Positions 22,656 to 56,120 of a stretch of 64,000 nt of DNA are shown piece by piece (the first letter of the stretch is position 1; the number at the start of each line of letters is the position of its first letter). Origin of the DNA: Arachidicoccus sp. BS20 (GTDB lineage Bacteria > Bacteroidota > Bacteroidia > Chitinophagales > Chitinophagaceae); NCBI RefSeq assembly GCF_001659705.1, contig NZ_CP015971.1, positions 2,545,029-2,609,028 of the forward strand, written 5' to 3'. The position numbers were made by a program, and so were the translations under genes. The notes below the pieces were generated by a model, which searched no databases, had not been told where the DNA came from, and was given only the letters and a program-made list of their open reading frames with translations.

Positions 22656-25646
22656 ATGAAGTGCAAGCAATTACTTTGTTTTCTGTCATTTGCATTTTTG
22701 CTTTTCATCGGGAACGATGCCGAAGCACAACAAATGAGAACAGTTTCCGGTATCGTAACGAGCAGCCAGCAGAATGTACCGTTAACCGGAGTTTCCGTAC
22801 AACTTAAAGGAACAGGCAAAGGTACATTTACAACTGCGTCCGGCTCTTATCAAATTAATGTGCCCGATACAGCAGGAATTTTAATTTTTTCTTACATTGG
22901 TTATCAGTCGCAAGAGATTCCGGTTACATCAAACGACCTTAATGTTACTTTATATCCGGACAGCTCCAACCAGTTGAGCGACGTGGTTGTGATTGGGTAC
23001 GGTGCGGTAAAAAAAGAAGACGCGACAGGCGCTATCACGACAGTTAGTTCAAAAGACTTCCAAACCGGCGCTATTACTTCGCCCATGCAGTTGATACAAG
23101 GCAAGGCTGCCGGCGTATCCATTATTTCAAATGGCGGGGCTCCCGGCAGTGCAAACACTATCAGAATACGCGGTATGGCTTCCTTAAACGGAAGTAACGA
23201 CCCATTGATTGTGATTGACGGAGTTCCTTTTGCCGGAAAAATAAATCCTAACGATGCGAGTGGTATAGCAGGAATTTCCGACCCGCTTGCTCTAATTAAT
23301 CCGGATGATATTGCATCTTTTACTATTTTAAAAGATGCATCGGCTACGGCTATTTACGGCTCGCGCGCTTCCAACGGCGTTATTTTAATTACAACGAAAA
23401 AGGGTACAATCGGCAAGCCTAAGTTCGATTTTAATACTACTTTTTCCTTGTCAAAACCCGAAGGATACATTTCGGTTTTGTCTCCGGATCAATTCCGGGA
23501 TTATGTAAATACTTACGGCGATTCTACGGAGCAATCATTGCTGGGCGATGCAAATACCAACTGGCAGAAAGCTATCTATCAAACAGCACTAACCACCAAT
23601 AACAATTTAAGCGTCACAGGAAGCTGGGGTAAATGGTTGCCTTACAGAGTTTCCGTGAACTATCTGAATCAGCAGGGAATTTTGAAGACAGATAATCTTC
23701 AAAGAGAAACAGGTAGCATCAGCTTAACGCCCTCCCTGTTTACCAATCACTTGAAGGTGGAATTGAATATGACCGGTTCGCTTACAAAGTCGCGCTTTGC
23801 CAATACCGGCGCTATTGGTGCGGCAGTAATATTTGACCCGACGCAGCCTGTCTATGATCAAAATAACACATTGTTTGGTGGATATTATCAATGGATGAAT
23901 TCCAATGGAACACCTAACAGTCTGGCTACACACAACCCTTTGGCATCGCTGGAACAAGAGCATAATATTGGCAATGCAAGAAGAAGTTTTGGTAATTTAA
24001 AACTGGATTATTCATTGCATTTTCTTCCAGAATTACATTTGATAGCCAACTGGGGATATGATGTATCGCAAGGGCACGGGTATGATGAATTCGATTCTAC
24101 GGACAGAGATGTTTACACAGGTGTATATGCAGGAAAAATTACCCGTTATCATCAGAAAACCACCAATGTGGTTGCTGAATATACATTGAATTATATCAAA
24201 GACTTCCCGTCCATCAAAAGTAATATCAACGCTATGGTAACTTATGGATATTACAACAACAAACAGACGAATGACAACTTCCCGACTTATGATTTGAGAG
24301 ATACATTGCTGCCCGGCACTACGCCGCTTTTCCCCAATGACATACAGGAAAATACACTTATCTCTTATTTGGGACGTTTGATTTATACGTTTGACGGGAA
24401 ATATACCTTAACGGCATCTTTGAGAAGAGATGAATCTTCCAAATTAGCACCCGGATTTCGTGCCGGAACACTGCCCGGTATTGCTTTGGGCTGGAATATC
24501 AAGAAAGAAAGCTTTTTGAAAAATGTGGATGCGGTTTCCGGTTTAAAACTCCGCCTTAGCTATGGTAAAACCGGCAACGTTGACGGGTTGGGCAACTATG
24601 GATATATTCCAAACTATAGTCTGAGCACCGAAGGCTCACAATACCAGTTAGGCAATAATTATTATCTTCTATTTGCGCCGGTTGCTTATGTGTCCGATTT
24701 GAGATGGGAACAAACAGCCTCTAAAGATATAGGATTGGATTTCGGATTTTTGAATAACCGTATTTCCGGCTCAATTGATTATTACAGCAAGCATACCGAT
24801 AATCTGATTGCTACTGTTCCTATTGCAGCGGGCACGAACTTTATCAATCAGGTTACCAAAAACATCGGTTCTATGCGTAGCCATGGTTTGGAATTTAACC
24901 TGAATTTGATACCTGTGCAAACAAAAGATATTGACTGGAACATGAATTTTAACCTTACAACATTTTCTATTAAAGTGTTAAGTGTTGGCAACAGTGATTC
25001 TGCACAACAATTTACCGGTAGCATTTCGGGCGGTGTCAACAACAAAATACAAATAAGCACTAAAGGTATTACGCCATTCAGTTATTATGTATATCATCAG
25101 GTATATGACCAAAGCGGACTTCCGCTTGAAGGCGTGTATGAGGATGCCAATGGGGATGGAATAATCAATCAAAATGATTTGTATCCTTATCACTCTTCTT
25201 TCCCAACATTGGAATTGGGTTTCAGTACTTCGTTCCGATACAAAAAATGGACTGTTGCTACAGTATTGCGCAGCAACATAGGTGCATACAATTACAACAA
25301 TGTTCAGTCAAATTTGGCTAATGGTCTTACAATGCTAAACCCATCTGCGGGTTATTTGGGAAATGCAGTAACAGATATACTGAATACGCATTTTCAACAA
25401 CCGCAATATCTGTCGGACTATTATGTGCAGAATGCGTCGTTCCTGCGTATGGACAATTTGAGTCTGACTTATAATATAGGTGCAATATTTAAGAATAAAG
25501 CAAACCTGATGTTGAGTGCCAATTGTCAAAACGTATTCGTAGTCACAAAATATCCCGGCTTAGACCCGGAAATTTCTTCGGGCATAGACAATGGTTTTTA
25601 TCCACGACCACGTACTTATTCTTTAGGTTTAAATCTTGGATTCTAA
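22656..25646 (+). CDS. susC: SusC-type TonB-linked outer-membrane transporter
   Basis: A 996-residue SusC/RagA-family receptor that imports oligosaccharides across the outer membrane with its SusD lid. Signal peptide to about residue 25; CarboxypepD-reg-like domain about 28-105 (SGIVTSSQQNVPLTGVSV); TonB box-like VVVIGYG at 110-116; plug with GKAAGVSIISNGGAPGS, IRIRGMASLNGSNDPLIVIDG and the family hallmark ILKDASATAIYGSRASNGV; barrel ending in LNLGF. It is followed 18 bp later by susD and then a SusE-like gene, with two GH13 enzymes, a GH31 enzyme and a sugar symporter downstream. The substrate is therefore very probably starch or maltodextrin. A LacI-type operator precedes it. Confidence 0.95.
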   Translation: MKCKQLLCFLSFAFLLFIGNDAEAQQMRTVSGIVTSSQQNVPLTGVSVQLKGTGKGTFTTASGSYQINVPDTAGILIFSYIGYQSQEIPVTSNDLNVTLYPDSSNQLSDVVVIGYGAVKKEDATGAITTVSSKDFQTGAITSPMQLIQGKAAGVSIISNGGAPGSANTIRIRGMASLNGSNDPLIVIDGVPFAGKINPNDASGIAGISDPLALINPDDIASFTILKDASATAIYGSRASNGVILITTKKGTIGKPKFDFNTTFSLSKPEGYISVLSPDQFRDYVNTYGDSTEQSLLGDANTNWQKAIYQTALTTNNNLSVTGSWGKWLPYRVSVNYLNQQGILKTDNLQRETGSISLTPSLFTNHLKVELNMTGSLTKSRFANTGAIGAAVIFDPTQPVYDQNNTLFGGYYQWMNSNGTPNSLATHNPLASLEQEHNIGNARRSFGNLKLDYSLHFLPELHLIANWGYDVSQGHGYDEFDSTDRDVYTGVYAGKITRYHQKTTNVVAEYTLNYIKDFPSIKSNINAMVTYGYYNNKQTNDNFPTYDLRDTLLPGTTPLFPNDIQENTLISYLGRLIYTFDGKYTLTASLRRDESSKLAPGFRAGTLPGIALGWNIKKESFLKNVDAVSGLKLRLSYGKTGNVDGLGNYGYIPNYSLSTEGSQYQLGNNYYLLFAPVAYVSDLRWEQTASKDIGLDFGFLNNRISGSIDYYSKHTDNLIATVPIAAGTNFINQVTKNIGSMRSHGLEFNLNLIPVQTKDIDWNMNFNLTTFSIKVLSVGNSDSAQQFTGSISGGVNNKIQISTKGITPFSYYVYHQVYDQSGLPLEGVYEDANGDGIINQNDLYPYHSSFPTLELGFSTSFRYKKWTVATVLRSNIGAYNYNNVQSNLANGLTMLNPSAGYLGNAVTDILNTHFQQPQYLSDYYVQNASFLRMDNLSLTYNIGAIFKNKANLMLSANCQNVFVVTKYPGLDPEISSGIDNGFYPRPRTYSLGLNLGF

Positions 25647-25664
25647 TATAAAAAAGATAAACAG

Positions 25665-27263
25665 ATGAAAAATAAATTTTTAAAAATAGTTGTTATCGCG
25701 CTTTGCGTTGGGATGGTTACAAGTTGTAACAAAATGCTGGATCTTCAGCCAACCAACAGCTTTACATCAGGTACCGTATTTAATTCACTTGCAACTACCA
25801 AACAGGCTTTGGCAAAAGTATATGCAGCATGGGGACTTACCGGCAACAGTGGAAACGGAAGCTCGGATTTGTCCGGCTACGACCCTAACTTTTCCGATTT
25901 TTTAAGGTCGTTTTATTATTTACAGGAATTGCCGACAGAAGAATCAATTTGCGCATGGAACGATGCGGGTGTACCGGATTTTCACAATTTAAGCTGGGTA
26001 CCGACCAACAACCAGTTTATTGAGGGAATGTACAATCGCTCCATTTATCAAATAGATGTGGCAAATGCCTTTTTAAGGCAAACTGCGGCAGATACAGTAG
26101 AGAATGCAAATTTCAGTGCAGCCGATGCCGACTCCGTAAAAGTTTTCAGAGCCGAAGCACGTTTTATAAGAGCATATCAATATTGGGTGCTCATGGACCT
26201 GTATGGAAATCCTCCGTTTACCGATGAGAACTCTGAGGTAGGCTCTGTAAATCCTCAGCAAATTAAACGAGCCGATTTATTCAAATATGTTGAAAGTGAA
26301 TTATTGGCAATTCAAAATGAGTTGAAACCTGCCGGTCAAAATGAATATGCCCGTGCCGACCAGGGCGCAGACTGGGCTTTACTGGCGCGTTTATATTTGA
26401 ATGCAGAAGTATATACCGGAACACAGAGATATACCGATGCTATCACCTATGCCTCTAAGGTTATCAACAGCGGGGTTTACGATTTAAAGTCAAATTACAA
26501 TGAGTTGTTTTTAGCAGACAATAATGTAAATAATCCTGAACAAATATTATCGATTGCCTATGACGGAATTAAAGGTCCTACAAATGGCGGAACTACATTT
26601 TTAATGCAATGTTCTTACAATTCCGATATGGAAGCCGATGTTAATTACGGCTTTAACGGCGGAAACCTCGCGTGGGGCGGAATGCGGGCAACATCTACAC
26701 TCCCAAAATTGTTCGGCGACGATTATACCAAATCCTCAGACTCAAGAGCACGTTTGTTCTATGGCAGTACCTATGACATTGCCGACCCGAAAAACTTTAA
26801 GCAAGGCATTGCAGTTACAAAATGGAGAAATGTGAAATCCGACGGAACAATACCTGCAGGTACCGTAGATATCGCTTCTACCGATTTTCCATTGTTCCGC
26901 TTAGCAGAACAATACTTAATTTATGCAGAAGCCGTGCTTCGCGGCGGCACCGGCGGAGATATGACTACTGCAATAAGCTATTTTAATAAAATTCGCAAAC
27001 GCGCTTATGGAAATGAGTCCGGAAATGTGTCAAGTATCAATTTGAATTTGATATTGGATGAAAGGGCGCGTGAATTTTATTGGGAATGTATGCGCCGTAC
27101 AGATTTAATACGCTTCGGCAAGTTTACCTCATCGTCGTATGTGTGGCCCTGGAAAGGCGGGGCAGCCGATGGTACCGGCGTAAGCGATAAATACAATCTC
27201 TACCCGATTCCGGTAAGCGATATTCAGGCAAACCCGAATCTTACACAAAACACAGGATATTAA
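25665..27263 (+). CDS. susD: SusD/RagB-family starch-binding lipoprotein
   Basis: A 532-residue surface lipoprotein acting as the substrate-binding lid of SusC. The lipobox is MVTSC (C21), followed by the typical NKMLDLQPTN start of mature SusD proteins. TPR-like helices run through the N-terminal half (EARFIRAYQYWVLMDLYGNPP), and the family C-terminal region (FPLFRLAEQYLIYAEAVLRGG, LDERAREFYWECMRRTDLIRFG) is intact. It lies 18 bp after susC and 24 bp before the SusE-like gene, so all three are one operon. Confidence 0.96.
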   Translation: MKNKFLKIVVIALCVGMVTSCNKMLDLQPTNSFTSGTVFNSLATTKQALAKVYAAWGLTGNSGNGSSDLSGYDPNFSDFLRSFYYLQELPTEESICAWNDAGVPDFHNLSWVPTNNQFIEGMYNRSIYQIDVANAFLRQTAADTVENANFSAADADSVKVFRAEARFIRAYQYWVLMDLYGNPPFTDENSEVGSVNPQQIKRADLFKYVESELLAIQNELKPAGQNEYARADQGADWALLARLYLNAEVYTGTQRYTDAITYASKVINSGVYDLKSNYNELFLADNNVNNPEQILSIAYDGIKGPTNGGTTFLMQCSYNSDMEADVNYGFNGGNLAWGGMRATSTLPKLFGDDYTKSSDSRARLFYGSTYDIADPKNFKQGIAVTKWRNVKSDGTIPAGTVDIASTDFPLFRLAEQYLIYAEAVLRGGTGGDMTTAISYFNKIRKRAYGNESGNVSSINLNLILDERAREFYWECMRRTDLIRFGKFTSSSYVWPWKGGAADGTGVSDKYNLYPIPVSDIQANPNLTQNTGY

Positions 27264-50034: not shown

Positions 50035-52137
50035 CTACTCTGTTTTTCCATAAAACGCTACATTGTCTATACTAAAAGTTCCGCTGCCCGATTCCGCATT
50101 AAAGCCGTAAAACCTAAACGTAACAGCAGTATTGATACTCGAAAAATCGTTTCCTAAATTAATAGTCGTTCCGTTTTGTGCGGTAGTTACGGCATCATTT
50201 ATCTGAATAACATTTCCGGCAACAATGGATAAATTATCGTTTTCCGGATTAATGGAAACCGGTAAATTATTTTCAAAACCATCAATACTTGCCCGTATCG
50301 CTATTTGACGCACACCCGTTCCGGAGCGCTGAACAATTAAAGTAATATTTGCAAGACTGAGCGTTTTTCCGTTTTCAGGTGTAATGGTTACTTCGTAATA
50401 TTTTGCAGTATCTATGCTCCCCGTAAAATTGTCGCTGCCGTTGGTAGCGCCCGTACTCCAGCTTTTGAAAGAAAACCGTCCTGATGCAGAAGAGTTGTCG
50501 CTCACATTTTTTGCAATAAAGTTATCAAAATGCAATCCGTCTACAACAGGCGGCGGCGTTGGGTCGGTGGCACCGGAGCTTGCAGATACATCACTAAAGT
50601 CATAAGTAGCCGTAAAGCTTGTTCCGACTGTGGCGCTGCTGTCGGAAGACGCCGTAATGTCATTGGTATTTCTGATTGAAAACTCAGGCGCAGCATTATA
50701 ATTATGTGCATAACCAATCCAGTTTTGATAACCTTCGGGCAGCGTATTGCCGGCGAAGACTGCCGAAGACAAAGTATATAATGAAATGCTTCCGCTTGTA
50801 TCCGAGAGAGTTTTATTGCCGCTGAATGTGCTGTTTGGTACAGATGCGTTATTAATTTGCACTAAAGTAAATTCCATATTTTCTGCATCGCCAAGTGGTT
50901 TTGCTAATGAAGATGTTATTTCTTCTATCGTTTTAATTACAGGGGCAATGACTTTCCCACTCGCCACAACGTTCGGCAAAGCTACACCGTAATGCAGCTT
51001 CAATTCCAGCGCCCCCTGATAAGACAATAATGAATCCGAAGCTGTCAGCTCCAATACCACAGAATCGCCAATATTATAATTAATTGTCCCGCCTGCATAT
51101 ACTGAAATACCGCTATTACCGCTTTGAAGCACAAAACTTCCGGAGGAAATATTTTTGCTTGCAGCATCTGAAATTACCACGCCGCCAACCGTATAGTTGC
51201 TGCCGAGCCGAATGTTATTTCCTTTGTACAGCGCTCTTATTTGTGCAATGGTCATTGGTTGCCCCGGAGCATCTGTATAACCGTCGCATCGTGTATCGTA
51301 AAATTGTATATCCGATGTATCGCGGATAACAATTTCCTTATATTTTTTGCCAGCCGCACTTACGTATGGCGTAAATATTCCGGTAATGCTGCCGTTGCCC
51401 TGCGGCACTTTAATATCCGCAAAATAGGCATAACTGCTATTATACAATTCCAACGAATCGGAGCTTGAACAAGTCTTCAAATAAAAAGAACCGTAGCTTG
51501 CCGTTTTTGAAGAATCTGCATACGTTTTTGTGAGGTCTGAATTTTGAAATTCAAATCCGTCCAAAACCACCAACCGGCTTTGCAACGGATTTTGCATGGC
51601 ATCGTCTATTGCAAGTTGGTCCAATGTTACAGGCACAGGCATTACCTCATTATTAAAACTTCCTTTGGCAATATACTCGTCAGCCAATGAGGATGCAATG
51701 CCGTCCACTCTCGGCGTAGTACTACTGTTATTAATACCGCCGCCCAACTGAATTGCACCGCTGTAATCGCCCAAAGTAAGCCCTTTCAGTCTGACAAATA
51801 TTTTTCGCCCGACAGGATAAGATGTGTACAAATTGTTACCGGAAATATTTACGGGAATAGCTCCGCTATTATCCTGAATCACAATTTCGTTATAAAAATT
51901 TCCGGAGCTGTCATTTGCCGTTACAATGCCGGAAATTACATAATCATCCGTAATCGTTTGGAACGAACCTCGAACTGTGTGCAGGGCTTTTAATTGCTGA
52001 ATAGAAAAATTGACCGGGAGGGAGTCGATTGGCTCTTCGGGTGGCGCGTCAAATTTTTTATTACAATTTGTAAAACCGATGATTGCAAAAAGCAATATCA
52101 CAAACATTTGAATTAATAGGAACAATTTCTTTTTCAT
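50035..52137 (-). CDS. DUF5689-containing surface lipoprotein with C-terminal beta-sandwich
   Basis: A 700-residue lipoprotein (lipobox GFTNC). Residues about 40-290 form a DUF5689 domain (SIQQLKALHTVRGSFQTI, VISGIVTANDSSGNFYNEIVIQD in part, GRKIFVRLKGLTLGDYSG), with a second OB-like repeat at about 295-495 (NYTVGGVVISDAASKN). The last 160 residues are a beta-sandwich with FSFKSWSTG, VRQIAIRASIDGF and FSIDNVAFYG. It is a Bacteroidota surface protein of unknown binding role. Its 5' leader is nearly the same as that of the EEP nuclease at 55071, and the gene between them is a TonB-dependent receptor, so all three probably work together. Confidence 0.8.
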   Translation of the reverse strand: MKKKLFLLIQMFVILLFAIIGFTNCNKKFDAPPEEPIDSLPVNFSIQQLKALHTVRGSFQTITDDYVISGIVTANDSSGNFYNEIVIQDNSGAIPVNISGNNLYTSYPVGRKIFVRLKGLTLGDYSGAIQLGGGINNSSTTPRVDGIASSLADEYIAKGSFNNEVMPVPVTLDQLAIDDAMQNPLQSRLVVLDGFEFQNSDLTKTYADSSKTASYGSFYLKTCSSSDSLELYNSSYAYFADIKVPQGNGSITGIFTPYVSAAGKKYKEIVIRDTSDIQFYDTRCDGYTDAPGQPMTIAQIRALYKGNNIRLGSNYTVGGVVISDAASKNISSGSFVLQSGNSGISVYAGGTINYNIGDSVVLELTASDSLLSYQGALELKLHYGVALPNVVASGKVIAPVIKTIEEITSSLAKPLGDAENMEFTLVQINNASVPNSTFSGNKTLSDTSGSISLYTLSSAVFAGNTLPEGYQNWIGYAHNYNAAPEFSIRNTNDITASSDSSATVGTSFTATYDFSDVSASSGATDPTPPPVVDGLHFDNFIAKNVSDNSSASGRFSFKSWSTGATNGSDNFTGSIDTAKYYEVTITPENGKTLSLANITLIVQRSGTGVRQIAIRASIDGFENNLPVSINPENDNLSIVAGNVIQINDAVTTAQNGTTINLGNDFSSINTAVTFRFYGFNAESGSGTFSIDNVAFYGKTE

Positions 52138-52228
52138 CTGTTTATTTTTATTGTTTTTTAATGATCAGATGGAATGTGCCAAAATAACTATCGCTTTGGG
52201 TATGCAAAATTCTTATGGCTCATTTCAT
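52138..52228 (-). promoter_or_regulatory. Leader/promoter region shared with the EEP nuclease gene, copy B
   Basis: Minus-strand leader of the DUF5689 gene. Bases 52228-52194 match 54960-54994 (+) at 34 of 35 positions (core GAGCCATAAGAA...TTTGCATACCC), and resemblance continues downstream through CCATCTGATCATTAAAA to AATAAACAG just before the ATG. In both copies the element points toward its gene. Confidence 0.8.
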
Positions 52229-52247
52229 ATAGATTATTTTATTTATT

Positions 52248-54803
52248 TTAAAACCGAAATGCAATGCTTAAATAATAATTCAGCCCGAAAGCATAATAGT
52301 ATTTTGGCGGGAACTTGGTAATACCGTTATTAAAATTTTGAACCACATTCGGGTCGTTGCGAAGCTGTTCGTAACCGCCCGAACGAATATTTTTATTGTC
52401 GGTCAAATTGTTTACACCCATGCCCAGCACGAGGGATACCGGTTTTCGGTCAATAAAAACGTGTCTTAATCTTTTGTTCCATCCTGCCATAAAATCCAAC
52501 GTAAATACCCCCTTTAGTTTTTCCTGAGCAAGCATTGCCTGTAATGCCGCCGCATCGGTTTGCGGATTCACGTCTGCAACCGCAGAAGCCGTGTGTCTTT
52601 GTGGGTCTGTGCTCAGCCAATCATTATTCATATAATTTCCTGTAAGTGCCGCGTACCAGTATTTAGGCGAATTGTAACGTAGTCCCAAGCTATATGCATT
52701 TTGCGGCGTGGATGGAATGCGGTAATTTTTCAAATAAACAATTTCCGTAGCACTCACTTCGCCGGTGTTGTCGATAGTCAGGGTTGCATTTTGACGGCTA
52801 TCGTAATAGTATCTGCCAACGGCTGCAGCTGCACTCAAATTAAGTGTTTGTGTTAGCTTTATTTCAGAGCCAAATTCGCCGCCGAAGTACAAACGGTTGA
52901 TTCCATTCAAGGCATAATTGGCGAATGCCTGTGCGTCGTCGCTGTAAAAAGAAATAACATCCATACCGTTTTGCGACTTAGTAAAATAGCCGCCAATGTG
53001 CGCTCTGATAAATGGACTGTTGAGACTGTAACCGCCTTCTACCGTTTCTACACTTTCGCTTTTTATATCATTCTGCAAAGAGTTGCGCGTACGCGGCGAT
53101 AGATAGGCATTGTCCGCAAAGGGGGCAATGGTAAAATACCCTGCATTGGCGAAAAAATAATTGCGTCCGTTCAGCTTGTAAGTCAAACCGAGCTTTTGGG
53201 CGTTATTTACAAATTTTTGCGGTGCGCTTTTTCCCAGAGAAGCATTGGGAAATAAACCCGTGCGCACATTACCAGTCCGGTAAAATTGCGAATAAGAAAT
53301 TTCGCTTGCCCAAAAAATGTCGAACCGGTTAAGATTGATTTTTGTCTGCCACCAGACTGCCATTTTCCGGTACGTGAAATCGTAATCGTAACCATAATGG
53401 CCACCCGCTTTTTTCGGTGCGTTCGGGTGGTCAAGGTCGTATTGAATTTTGCTGTTGTCGGTAGGAAAATCTCTTAAAGCATATTGATTTACATTCAGCC
53501 AAAAATCGCCGCCAAGCAAATCATCCACCTGTTGATAATAATGATTTTTTTGCCAACCGAAATTTGCTCCTGCATTAACAGAAATCATATCGCTGAAACG
53601 GGAAGTAAAATTGATGCTTGCCATTAAGTGCCGCGTATCAACCACTCTGTCGCCAAGAATATACCTTGACTGAAGCCCGGAATCGGTGTAACTGCTTCGA
53701 TTGATATTGTATAAATTTTGCCAATTGATTTGCAGTAAATCCGGGGAGTTTTTTATCGCCTCGGTCAACGCTTGAGCCTGCGCCGGGTCGCTTTGCGCAT
53801 AATAGCTTGGCAAATACCGGTAATAATCCGGGCGCGGGTCGGGCGCATTATTCCAATCCAAAGCCGACGAGCTTCGCTTGCCCCAAAAATATCCTACAGA
53901 TGTTTGCAGGTTACTGTGATTATCCGGCTTGAACTCGTGCGATAAAATAAATACAGGCTGGCGCGATTTATTGACATTGGCATTTCTCTTTTTGCCGTTT
54001 TGGTAGCCCCACGAAGGATTATAAAAATTTGTTCCTGCCAAATCCATCGCTTCCTGTACCGAAGCGGCTTGCCGCCCGTATTCCGAAGGCGCATAAAAAC
54101 CGATAAAAGAAACCGTATTTTTCAGCCCGATTTTCTTATCCAATGCACCGTAGAAGCTAAAACTATTGTTGTATGTTCCCGCAACATACCCTTCCCCGGC
54201 GAGACTTGCGAATGCGGCAATGCTGTATGCCCAACCGGTTTTACCAAAACCGGAACTGTGCGAAAAATTAAGGCGGTGCTGATAATTTCTATTAGAAAAT
54301 GCGTATCCTAAATTTGTTTCCCGCCATTGCTTTCCGGAGCGCATATCAATATTTGTATTCATACCAAAAGAACCGAATCCAAAGTTTGCCGGCTGCAAAC
54401 CCTGCACATTTTCCCTGGCACGCATCATACTGCTCATACCGCTCCACAAGCCGAAAGGCGTATTGCCGTTGTCCAATCCGTTAAATTCCAAACCATTGAT
54501 GTAAGTCGCATTCCGGCTATTCTCATATCCCCGGATTTTAAACCGCATCACGCTAAAGTTAAAAGATGCTGCGGAAAGAAAAGGATTACGTCCCGCCGTA
54601 AGCATAGACGAAATACTGCTGCCGCCATTATCGTTAAGGTCGTCATTGTCAATAGCAAGCGTAGGCAAATTGTCCAGCATATTGTTTTGCACATCCTGTA
54701 TCAAAACCGAATCAGAATTTAGCGGAATGCTGTCGGTTGTATCTTGAGCCTGAACAGAACGGTCAAAAAAAAGAAATGCCAATAGAAACAGAACGTTTTT
54801 CAT
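52248..54803 (-). CDS. TonB-dependent receptor of the DUF5689/nuclease cluster
   Basis: An 851-residue outer-membrane receptor with signal peptide NVLFLLAFLFFDRSVQAQ, no carboxypeptidase-regulatory-like domain, a plug (SSISSMLTAGRNPFLSAASF, FKIRGYENSRNATYINGLEF) and a barrel ending in LSIAFRF. Plug motifs differ from SusC and from the two receptors in 16183-21163. It lies between the DUF5689 lipoprotein (110 bp downstream) and the divergent nuclease gene, so nucleic-acid breakdown products or phosphate compounds are possible cargoes. The ligand is not proven. Confidence 0.88.
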   Translation of the reverse strand: MKNVLFLLAFLFFDRSVQAQDTTDSIPLNSDSVLIQDVQNNMLDNLPTLAIDNDDLNDNGGSSISSMLTAGRNPFLSAASFNFSVMRFKIRGYENSRNATYINGLEFNGLDNGNTPFGLWSGMSSMMRARENVQGLQPANFGFGSFGMNTNIDMRSGKQWRETNLGYAFSNRNYQHRLNFSHSSGFGKTGWAYSIAAFASLAGEGYVAGTYNNSFSFYGALDKKIGLKNTVSFIGFYAPSEYGRQAASVQEAMDLAGTNFYNPSWGYQNGKKRNANVNKSRQPVFILSHEFKPDNHSNLQTSVGYFWGKRSSSALDWNNAPDPRPDYYRYLPSYYAQSDPAQAQALTEAIKNSPDLLQINWQNLYNINRSSYTDSGLQSRYILGDRVVDTRHLMASINFTSRFSDMISVNAGANFGWQKNHYYQQVDDLLGGDFWLNVNQYALRDFPTDNSKIQYDLDHPNAPKKAGGHYGYDYDFTYRKMAVWWQTKINLNRFDIFWASEISYSQFYRTGNVRTGLFPNASLGKSAPQKFVNNAQKLGLTYKLNGRNYFFANAGYFTIAPFADNAYLSPRTRNSLQNDIKSESVETVEGGYSLNSPFIRAHIGGYFTKSQNGMDVISFYSDDAQAFANYALNGINRLYFGGEFGSEIKLTQTLNLSAAAAVGRYYYDSRQNATLTIDNTGEVSATEIVYLKNYRIPSTPQNAYSLGLRYNSPKYWYAALTGNYMNNDWLSTDPQRHTASAVADVNPQTDAAALQAMLAQEKLKGVFTLDFMAGWNKRLRHVFIDRKPVSLVLGMGVNNLTDNKNIRSGGYEQLRNDPNVVQNFNNGITKFPPKYYYAFGLNYYLSIAFRF

Positions 54804-54959
54804 AGTGGCGTTTTTAGGTTATTCGTATTAACAAATATATGCAGTTTCTTTTATATTAGAAAATTTTACTACTTTTATTTAACAGATTGACCATGACGTA
54901 AGTCACAAGCACATTATACTTATTGTTTGACAAACCCTTTCTGACAATAAAATAAACAC

Positions 54960-55070
54960 ATGAAATGAGCCATAAGAACTTTGCATACCCAAAGAGATGA
55001 TTATTTGGCGAAACGGAGTTCGGCGAAGCCAATTCCACCTGACCATTAAAAACAATTAAAAAATAAACAG
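54960..55070 (+). promoter_or_regulatory. Leader/promoter region shared with the DUF5689 gene, copy A
   Basis: Contains the 35-bp core (54960-54994) and the same A-rich run up to the ATG as copy B, but with about 20 extra bases (about 55010-55030) in which GGCGAA is repeated. The rest of the 267-bp gap (54804-54959) is AT-rich with no clear motif. Confidence 0.8.
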
Positions 55071-56120
55071 ATGAAAAGAACCATACCCGTACTGTTATTA
55101 TGCGTAGCGTACATTATAATTACCAACCGGTTATATGCTCAAACAACAACCTACAATACGGCAATTGTTGCATTTTATAATCTGGAAAATTTTTATGATA
55201 CAATAAACAACACAATGGTCAATGACGAAGATTTTTTGCCCGATGGAAAAAAGGCTTACACCTCTGCCGTTTACAAAGAAAAAGTGAAGCATCTTGCAAG
55301 CGTTATTGCCCAAATAGGAACCGATATAAATCCTGACGGACCTGCTGTTTTAGGCTGTGCCGAAATTGAAAATGATACGGTTTTGAACGATTTGATTCAT
55401 CATCCCTTATTGGCAGAACGAAATTACCGGTTTATCCATTATGATTCCCGCGACCCGCGCGGCGTAGATGTCGCATTAATTTATAATCCTAAATATTTTA
55501 AAGTTGAAAGCAGCCGTCCATTATTTGTTCAACTGCCGCGCGACTCCAAAACGGCATTTTATACACGCGATATTTTGTGGGTTACAGGCTACTTAAATGG
55601 CGAGCGTGTGGATGTTTTGGTAAACCACTGGCCAAGCAGGTACGGCGGAGAAAAACGTTCTACACCCGCAAGAGCTGCCGCTGCAATTGTTGCACGAAAA
55701 AAAATAAACGAATTATTAAAACAAAACCCGCACGATAAAATCATTTTAATGGGCGACCTGAATGACGACCCTGTAAATGTGAGCATCGCTGAATACCTGG
55801 ATGCCGGAGGAGATATGAAGAACCTGCACGAAGGCGAATTGTATAATCCATGGGTTGGGCTTTATAAAAAAGGCTTAGGTACTTTGGCTTATCAGGATGC
55901 ATGGAGTTTATTTGACCAGATTATGCTGTCGCAATCGTGGCTCGATAAAAAACAAACGGGCTTTTTCTTTTACCAAAACCATGTATTTAAGAAAGAGTTT
56001 ATGATTGAAAATATGGGACGCTACAAAGGCTATCCATTGCGCACTTACGACGGCGATACTTTTCATAATGGTTACAGCGACCACTTTCCTACTTACATTA
56101 TCCTGCTAAAAAAACGCTGA
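55071..56120 (+). CDS. Secreted endonuclease/exonuclease/phosphatase (EEP, DNase I-like) family protein
   Basis: A 349-residue protein with signal peptide (IPVLLLCVAYIIITNRLYAQ) and a full EEP fold: NLENFYD (37-43), metal-binding AEIEND (97-102), RGVDVALIY (130-138), NHWPSR (185-190), GDLNDDP (228-234) and the catalytic SDH (336-338). The subgroup with NLENFYD/NHWPSR is common in Bacteroidota and includes extracellular nucleases; phosphodiesterase or phosphatase activity is also possible. It is divergent from the receptor gene and has the same leader as the DUF5689 lipoprotein gene. Confidence 0.9.
   Translation: MKRTIPVLLLCVAYIIITNRLYAQTTTYNTAIVAFYNLENFYDTINNTMVNDEDFLPDGKKAYTSAVYKEKVKHLASVIAQIGTDINPDGPAVLGCAEIENDTVLNDLIHHPLLAERNYRFIHYDSRDPRGVDVALIYNPKYFKVESSRPLFVQLPRDSKTAFYTRDILWVTGYLNGERVDVLVNHWPSRYGGEKRSTPARAAAAIVARKKINELLKQNPHDKIILMGDLNDDPVNVSIAEYLDAGGDMKNLHEGELYNPWVGLYKKGLGTLAYQDAWSLFDQIMLSQSWLDKKQTGFFFYQNHVFKKEFMIENMGRYKGYPLRTYDGDTFHNGYSDHFPTYIILLKKR

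Follow-up and report, generated by a model that had tools for sequence, protein, structure and literature searches.

Matching gene leaders in Arachidicoccus as probable copies of a small mobile element at ATGA start codons

The window analysed here, a stretch of 64,000 nucleotides from Arachidicoccus sp. BS20, contains two genes on opposite strands that are preceded by almost the same leader: one for a DUF5689 lipoprotein-like protein (50035..52137, minus strand; PF18942, E=1.4e-90) and one for a protein of the endonuclease/exonuclease/phosphatase (EEP) family (55071..56120, plus strand; PF19580, E=3.8e-112). Between 54960-54994 (+) and 52228-52194 (-) 34 of 35 bases are identical, and the likeness extends up to the start codons of both genes. 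Copy A, ahead of the EEP gene, is 117 bases long (54960..55076, +); copy B, which sits between a TonB-receptor-like gene and the DUF5689 gene, measures 97 bases from outer ATGAAA to outer ATGAAA (52132..52228, -). The initial annotation of this DNA had described the near identity, its extent and the 20 additional bases of copy A correctly, and had read them as a leader duplicated or kept alike so that both products are made together. Here, we argue that the two leaders are most probably copies of a small (~100 bases), non-autonomous mobile element that sits at ATGA and supplies its own start region; that they belong to a mobile element of some kind is very likely indeed.

The anatomy is best described for copy B. 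Its left ATGA (52225..52228, -) would be the old start codon plus one base, and its right ATGA (52134..52137, -) is now the start of the DUF5689 gene. Two hairpins are predicted in between. Hairpin 1 pairs AATGAGCCA with TGGCTCATT or an equivalent; in copy B the predicted fold joins the 5' arm AATGAGCCA (52216..52224, -), for which related copies covary, to the 3' arm TGGCACATT (52173..52181, -) with one mismatch. Hairpin 2 pairs CATCTG (52166..52171, -) with CAGATG (52135..52140, -), closes an A-rich loop and contains the new, working start codon; here, the predicted fold is accompanied by covariation between CTG/CAG and GTG/CAC. The 20 additional bases of copy A can be aligned as a single block, ACGGAGTTCGGCGAAGCCAA (55013..55032, +), that falls within the 3' arm of hairpin 1 or next to it, the exact placing depending on the alignment. 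Blocks resembling it are present in about one third of the parsed copies (34/88, a crude class).

Both copies are recovered from the 64-kb window by the sequence-only model R1 (copy B, E=4.7e-27; copy A, E=1.9e-24), which was built from the element family with both window copies among its sequences, and by model R2 (copy B, E=1.7e-15; copy A, E=3.4e-12), which is biased toward the structure by the choice of left ends described below. In G000, the genome of the window (a single contig of 3.49 Mb), a search for the core motif with up to three mismatches gave 22 places, and the reversed control gave none; a sister species of the same genus (G005) has 25. Eight other genomes in this search, which covered G000 and relatives, have one place with three mismatches each, apparently unrelated. 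The R1 values and the 22 places against none exclude a chance likeness. A sequence model made from 48 copies, with the best 150 candidates per genome scored, gave 70 matches at E <= 0.01 in G000, 78 in G005, 20 in G001, 3 in G003, 2 in G004 and none in G002, and a hidden Markov model run on the fetched stretches yielded 116 copies (55 in G000, 45 in G005, 15 in G001 and 1 in G003). Those of G000 are divided between the strands (29 +, 26 -), and four tandem pairs overlap by about 4 bases, with one ATGA common to both members. The window leaders are two of dozens of copies, and the best reading is that their likeness marks repeated insertion, not shared control.

The family is not uniform. A second Arachidicoccus type carries ATGAAATGCCC, and a third subfamily (ATGAAACCGAGC...GAGGTTCCATCCG...ATACGGATGAA) is common to G000 and G001 (L256 1919-2014 and the G001 copies). 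Two copies of G000 (G000:C1:624554-624641 and 639015-639102; L253 and L254) are identical, have an identical flank of 70 bases and precede the same 403-aa gene about 14.5 kb apart; this pair is a recent local duplication. A weak R1 match to the right half of the element is located in the window at 25616-25670 (+) (E=0.0046), ending in AAACAGATGAAA; R2 gave no match there.

The sister species provide the empty sites. Of 31 genes behind copies that were searched for in the sister genomes, the best sister match was inspected for 21 (12 from G000, 9 from G005), and the element was absent from the 220 bases upstream in all 21. The empty alleles have an ATG at the site throughout and ATGA in most, and where the flanks align the empty allele reads flank, then ATGA, then gene. 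The flank aligns clearly up to the ATG in three pairs (G000 2293127 and G000 1003977 (vs G005), and G005 C34:92781 vs G000) and with gaps in a fourth (G000 3177809). G005 carries neither of the window copies; its receptor and DUF5689 genes are neighbours on C32, and its EEP gene is found on C31. Judged by these empty alleles, the 91 bases of copy B and the 111 bases of copy A that separate old ATG from new ATG were inserted at the start codon. Three further pairs, chosen because they were known to be filled in both species, carry the element in both, so that some copies either are old or have been acquired on two occasions.

The ends of the element were counted in 95 full-length copies from G000, G005 and G001, in which NTGA was read at 89 left and 94 right ends. 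It is ATGA at 85/89 left and 90/94 right ends, and AA follows directly at 83/89 and 85/94, respectively. A six-base target duplication, ATGAAA, was considered and dropped in favour of ATGA, because right ends vary while left ends nearly always keep the AA. The variant right ends ATGAAT, ATGAGA and ATGATT (ATGAAC in another family) still pair with a left AA, and a GrpE gene of G000 that lacks the element begins ATGAGC; therefore, ATGA suffices as target and the left AA is the element's own. In the copies of the genus that were read, ATGAAATGAGCC at one end and AAACAGATGA at the other do not form an inverted repeat, so that the element does not fit a classical miniature inverted-repeat transposable element with terminal inverted repeats and a target duplication made by a DDE transposase.

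The element is not confined to the genus. A pattern for hairpin 2 was applied to one genome per species, and at least 118 stretches matched it; 80 loci among the matches listed were inspected, with 81 element matches, and these 80 carry names that we take to be those of Bacteroidota. Among the 81 matches listed, the open reading frame (ORF) opened by the element reaches 60 aa in 54 and 100 aa in 50; some have no left end. A structured model, with the best 14 candidates per genome scored, matched at E <= 1e-5 in 16/296 genomes of the phylum, with at least 14 matches each in G000, G257 and G346, 12 in G350 and in G293, and 10 in G338. In the host family, R1 matches at E <= 1e-6 occur in 13/117 genomes. 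Nine further loci have the same anatomy, in some again with CATGTG/CACATG. Patchy presence with many copies where the element is present is the pattern of a mobile element.

Do the two hairpins exist in the family? Of eight copies folded, six are predicted with both. In the genus, 88 of the 116 copies could be parsed, and in 77 of them both test positions of hairpin 2 are occupied by C or G: a C in the middle goes with a G on the right in 63 and a G with a C in 12, with 2 mixed (Fisher p 2.5e-12, a value that is too small because the copies are related). Since the pattern hits of the phylum were selected for hairpin 2, it is these counts, and not the conservation there, that support it. For hairpin 1, we used 59 of the 81 phylum matches, with left ends chosen blind to pairing (21 dropped for want of ATGAAA or for a short flank, 1 as a duplicate). 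The base after ATGAAA and the base before TTCCAT are T-A in 29, C-G in 28 and otherwise in 2 and, counted over 33 distinct combinations, T-A in 13, C-G in 18 and otherwise in 2. At the three pairs that follow, standard pairing is limited to 35, 22 and 33 of the 59; the arm pairs either fully (TGCCC/GGGCA, CATCC/GGATG, CAACC/GGTTG, CGCCC/GGGCG) or, often, with G,A facing A,G. Among the genus copies, a copy's own left and middle arms pair at 9.11 of 13 positions, compared to 8.56 for shuffled arms (sd 0.08). In alignment A3, made of 45 phylum copies (from 57/81 left ends chosen partly by pairing) and 11 genus copies, 96.2% of the cells are paired in the named structure and the covariation score is 0.159, compared to 0.064 for shuffles and a maximum of 0.084 on sliding, but one of ten pairs is unpaired in 20/55 rows, and the choice of left ends biases the hairpin 1 figures toward the structure. 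RNAalifold found no pairs in the Arachidicoccus set, a null result that is misleading because one arm holds a block in about one third of the copies and a single base separates the two main types; for the phylum set, it recovered hairpin 2 but not hairpin 1, which was then counted directly. The middle of the element, GGCTCA-TTCCAT-CTG, is with one mismatch the reverse complement of the junction CAG-ATGAAA-TGAGCC of a tandem or circle. A search of Rfam 15 at the gathering score gave no match in the window and two matches at eight loci with phylum copies, neither at the element. A DUF805 RNA (RF03081) lies above its gathering score on a Labilibaculum contig (L274 2779-2845, -).

Copies end in the ATG of an ORF of at least 100 aa in 35/55 cases in G000 and in 30/45 in G005. 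These 64-67% compare with 29% expected (25/85 window sites; p about 1e-7) in a neutral estimate that rests on a rough gene call in the window and takes ATGA/GTGA sites at starts or in non-coding DNA. At starts, copies always point into the gene because the target is read in one direction. At one place (L029 1480-1500; G000:C1:1721285), the copy appears by eye to be at an ATGA that ends a coding frame (...RNWKY) and is not a start. Pfam identified an alpha-L-fucosidase and a thioredoxin-like protein behind copies; by eye, there are also SusD-like lipoproteins, a UDP-glucose-dehydrogenase-like protein, LacI-like and LytTR-like regulators, GrpE, LemA and an aquaporin.

This excess of gene starts could also be expected if the leader were a regulatory RNA or operator that was spread by selection, through recombination or gene conversion of 5' leaders, so that the carriers form a regulon; the exported proteins that many carriers encode (by eye) and the start codon inside hairpin 2 would fit as well. 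We consider this improbable and have rejected it in view of dispersed copies, unrelated genes and empty sister sites. No ORF of at least 100 aa lies behind 20/55 and 15/45 copies, the genes for GrpE and the LytTR-like, LacI-like and UDP-glucose-dehydrogenase-like proteins have no evident common theme, Rfam is silent at the element, and the sister's genes mostly lack it, the three chosen pairs apart. Moreover, a replaced leader would not retain the old ATGA and the native flank. The joint production and the two-gene regulon seen in the initial annotation are thus not borne out: with 22 motif places and 70 model matches, the sequence is a dispersed repeat ahead of unrelated genes, an outcome that the annotation itself had named as a refutation; 20/55 fetched copies have no such ORF at their end, and the best-matching sister genes, those for both window genes included, have no element in 21/21 cases. 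What stands of it is that the leader is longer than a promoter, occurs in copies, and can fold in most copies tested. A short frame inside the element, MSHKNFAYPKR, raises the further thought of a leader peptide or attenuator that senses translation, and in the common Arachidicoccus type several frequent changes, AAC/AAT, TTT/TTC and TAC/TAT, are silent in it (by eye). However, the frame is shifted in the second type (ATGAAATGCCC) and differs again in further subfamilies, and across the phylum the loops vary in length by non-multiples of three. On these grounds the leader peptide was rejected; there is hardly any chance that it is correct.

We return to a mobile element that is inserted at ATGA. 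Insertion would take place directly 3' of an ATGA, most often that of a start-codon ATG and the next A. The old start codon would stay as the ATGA of the left end, with the native upstream region kept, and in the common type it reads ATG-AAA-TGA. The right end would bring an A-rich leader and a second ATGA as working start codon, so translation would begin at the second ATG, behind the A-rich stretch, and the new leader would keep the gene expressed. A fixed short target 5' of the left end (ATGA at 85/89 left ends; empty alleles) and hairpins near both ends, each with covariation, are features of IS200/IS605-type elements. By analogy, folded single-stranded DNA may move through a circle, as in IS200/IS605 and repetitive extragenic palindromic (REP) elements, with an enzyme of the Y1 type or of another kind acting in trans. 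The circle junction would read CAG-ATGA-AATGAGCC, and the CAT of the middle may guide the element to the ATG at both ends. Such a Y1-like route is a possibility to which we give somewhat less than even chances. Alternatively, the same element could be moved by a tyrosine recombinase that acts on a folded, attC-like site whose crossover core contains ATGA. In a circle or tandem array, the junction is almost the complement of the middle, and the two would form a single long hairpin interrupted by a mismatch; members of a tandem array have one core in common, and tyrosine recombinases are present in 6/6 genomes of the genus. Presence throughout the genus does not discriminate, however, and no specific recombinase is linked to the element; we regard this route as rather unlikely.

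At the Y1 loci read in the genus and in 17 other genomes, with about 1.5 kb of flank each, we looked for a parent that would combine these ends with a Y1 transposase, and found none. The only element sequences near the Y1 loci read were two full matches in L410 and one partial match in L398, and the IS copies of G001 have ends unlike those of the element. The motif Y---Q--HH characterises Y1 proteins of subclass 1.2 which, according to PMC6006769, are mostly from cyanobacteria and Bacteroidetes and generally have no IS200 end structures. It is present in 2/3 Y1 proteins of G000, in the single one of G005 and at 23/30 Y1 loci fetched from other carrier genomes; in the host family, 6/7 genomes with at least 5 copies have a subclass-1.2-like Y1 (p 0.12). 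We know of no substrate of the orphan Y1 proteins of subclass 1.2. As the enzyme, orphan Y1 transposases are a weak candidate, statistically unsupported. In one copy, tandem repeats with a unit of about 130 bases occupy a gap of about 1 kb (G000:C1:1307441-1308500), where we saw no transposase gene; these repeats (TTCGGGATTTGCAATCGCGAAC, GACATTGCAAATGTC) lie between the left part and the right half of the copy (L104 1600-2560; G000:C1:1307500-1308460). Near G000:C1 2946000 (L221 1860-2700), a Y1 gene with a YIHQNP motif, which resembles those of REP-associated tyrosine transposases (RAYT), is located between TTCGGAATTTGTAATTCCGAA-type repeats similar to those inside the L104 copy; there is no element copy beside it. 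In G005 (C11; L222 2142-2205 and 3061-3080), the start of a proC-like gene is found twice, before and after the single Y1 gene.

Several observations weigh against our explanation. Movement is inferred between species and not observed within one, and some of the 21 sister matches, at 44-92% identity, may be paralogs. Copy A of the window is predicted with neither hairpin, and one other of the eight folded copies with hairpin 2 only. AA is commoner after the right ATGA than a bare ATGA target explains, which suggests a further target preference. No autonomous copy and no enzyme were found among the half-matches, long copies and Y1 loci read. Two of the 17 other carrier genomes are without any Y1 match; in the host family, Y1 genes occur in 11/13 carriers and 78/104 non-carriers (p 0.73), and strong matches to subclass-1.2-like Y1 in 9/13 and 54/104, respectively (p 0.38). 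G001, with 20 element matches, has no subclass-1.2-like match.

Most transposons damage genes or lie between them. This element would settle on a start codon and bring its own start, dozens of times in a single genome and in families far apart within the phylum. If this is true, many Bacteroidota genes have 5' leaders made by a transposon, and upstream regions need to be reread before they are called regulons. Base pairing may guide the element to ATG, and orphan Y1 proteins of subclass 1.2 might have a possible substrate. It is tempting to speculate, although we would sooner bet against it, that this is a new class of mobile elements, widespread in Bacteroidota, in which an internal segment with CAT pairs with the ATG of either end as an inbuilt guide to start codons, that it exchanges the translation-start region of its target gene and keeps the gene readable, and that its enzyme is of a new kind or an orphan Y1 of subclass 1.2. 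We found no description of such an element in the literature covered, which leaves out most subscription journals.

How does the element compare with known systems? Integron cassettes have, in attC, a folded single-strand site that is completed in the circle, and they form tandem arrays; the element is alike in both respects. Unlike a cassette it carries no gene, and by eye the attC box consensus is not seen. In Borrelia, stem-loops derived from a known IS605 likewise stand alone, as dispersed transposon hairpins that are conserved next to lipoprotein genes; according to PMC2775950, they are at the 3' ends of genes. REP sequences, according to PMC6006769 and PMC3733652, are 20-65 bases long with GTAG/GGAG (or CGTC), and share with the element that they are short, multi-copy and extragenic, have a tetranucleotide at the foot of a hairpin and lack an enzyme of their own. 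The element differs in its ATGA, its two hairpins and its location at start codons; membership in the REP/RAYT group was rejected because the tetranucleotide is ATGA and not GTAG/GGAG, and because no copy lies beside the RAYT-like gene in L221. With IS200/IS605 and their non-autonomous derivatives, as summarised in PMC6006769, it has in common a tetranucleotide beside the left end and one that ends the right end, hairpins near both ends, and no inverted terminal repeats seen. Unlike these, the element has no transposase gene or parent at the Y1 loci read, targets ATGA at start codons, has a middle that is complementary to both of its ends and supplies a translation start.

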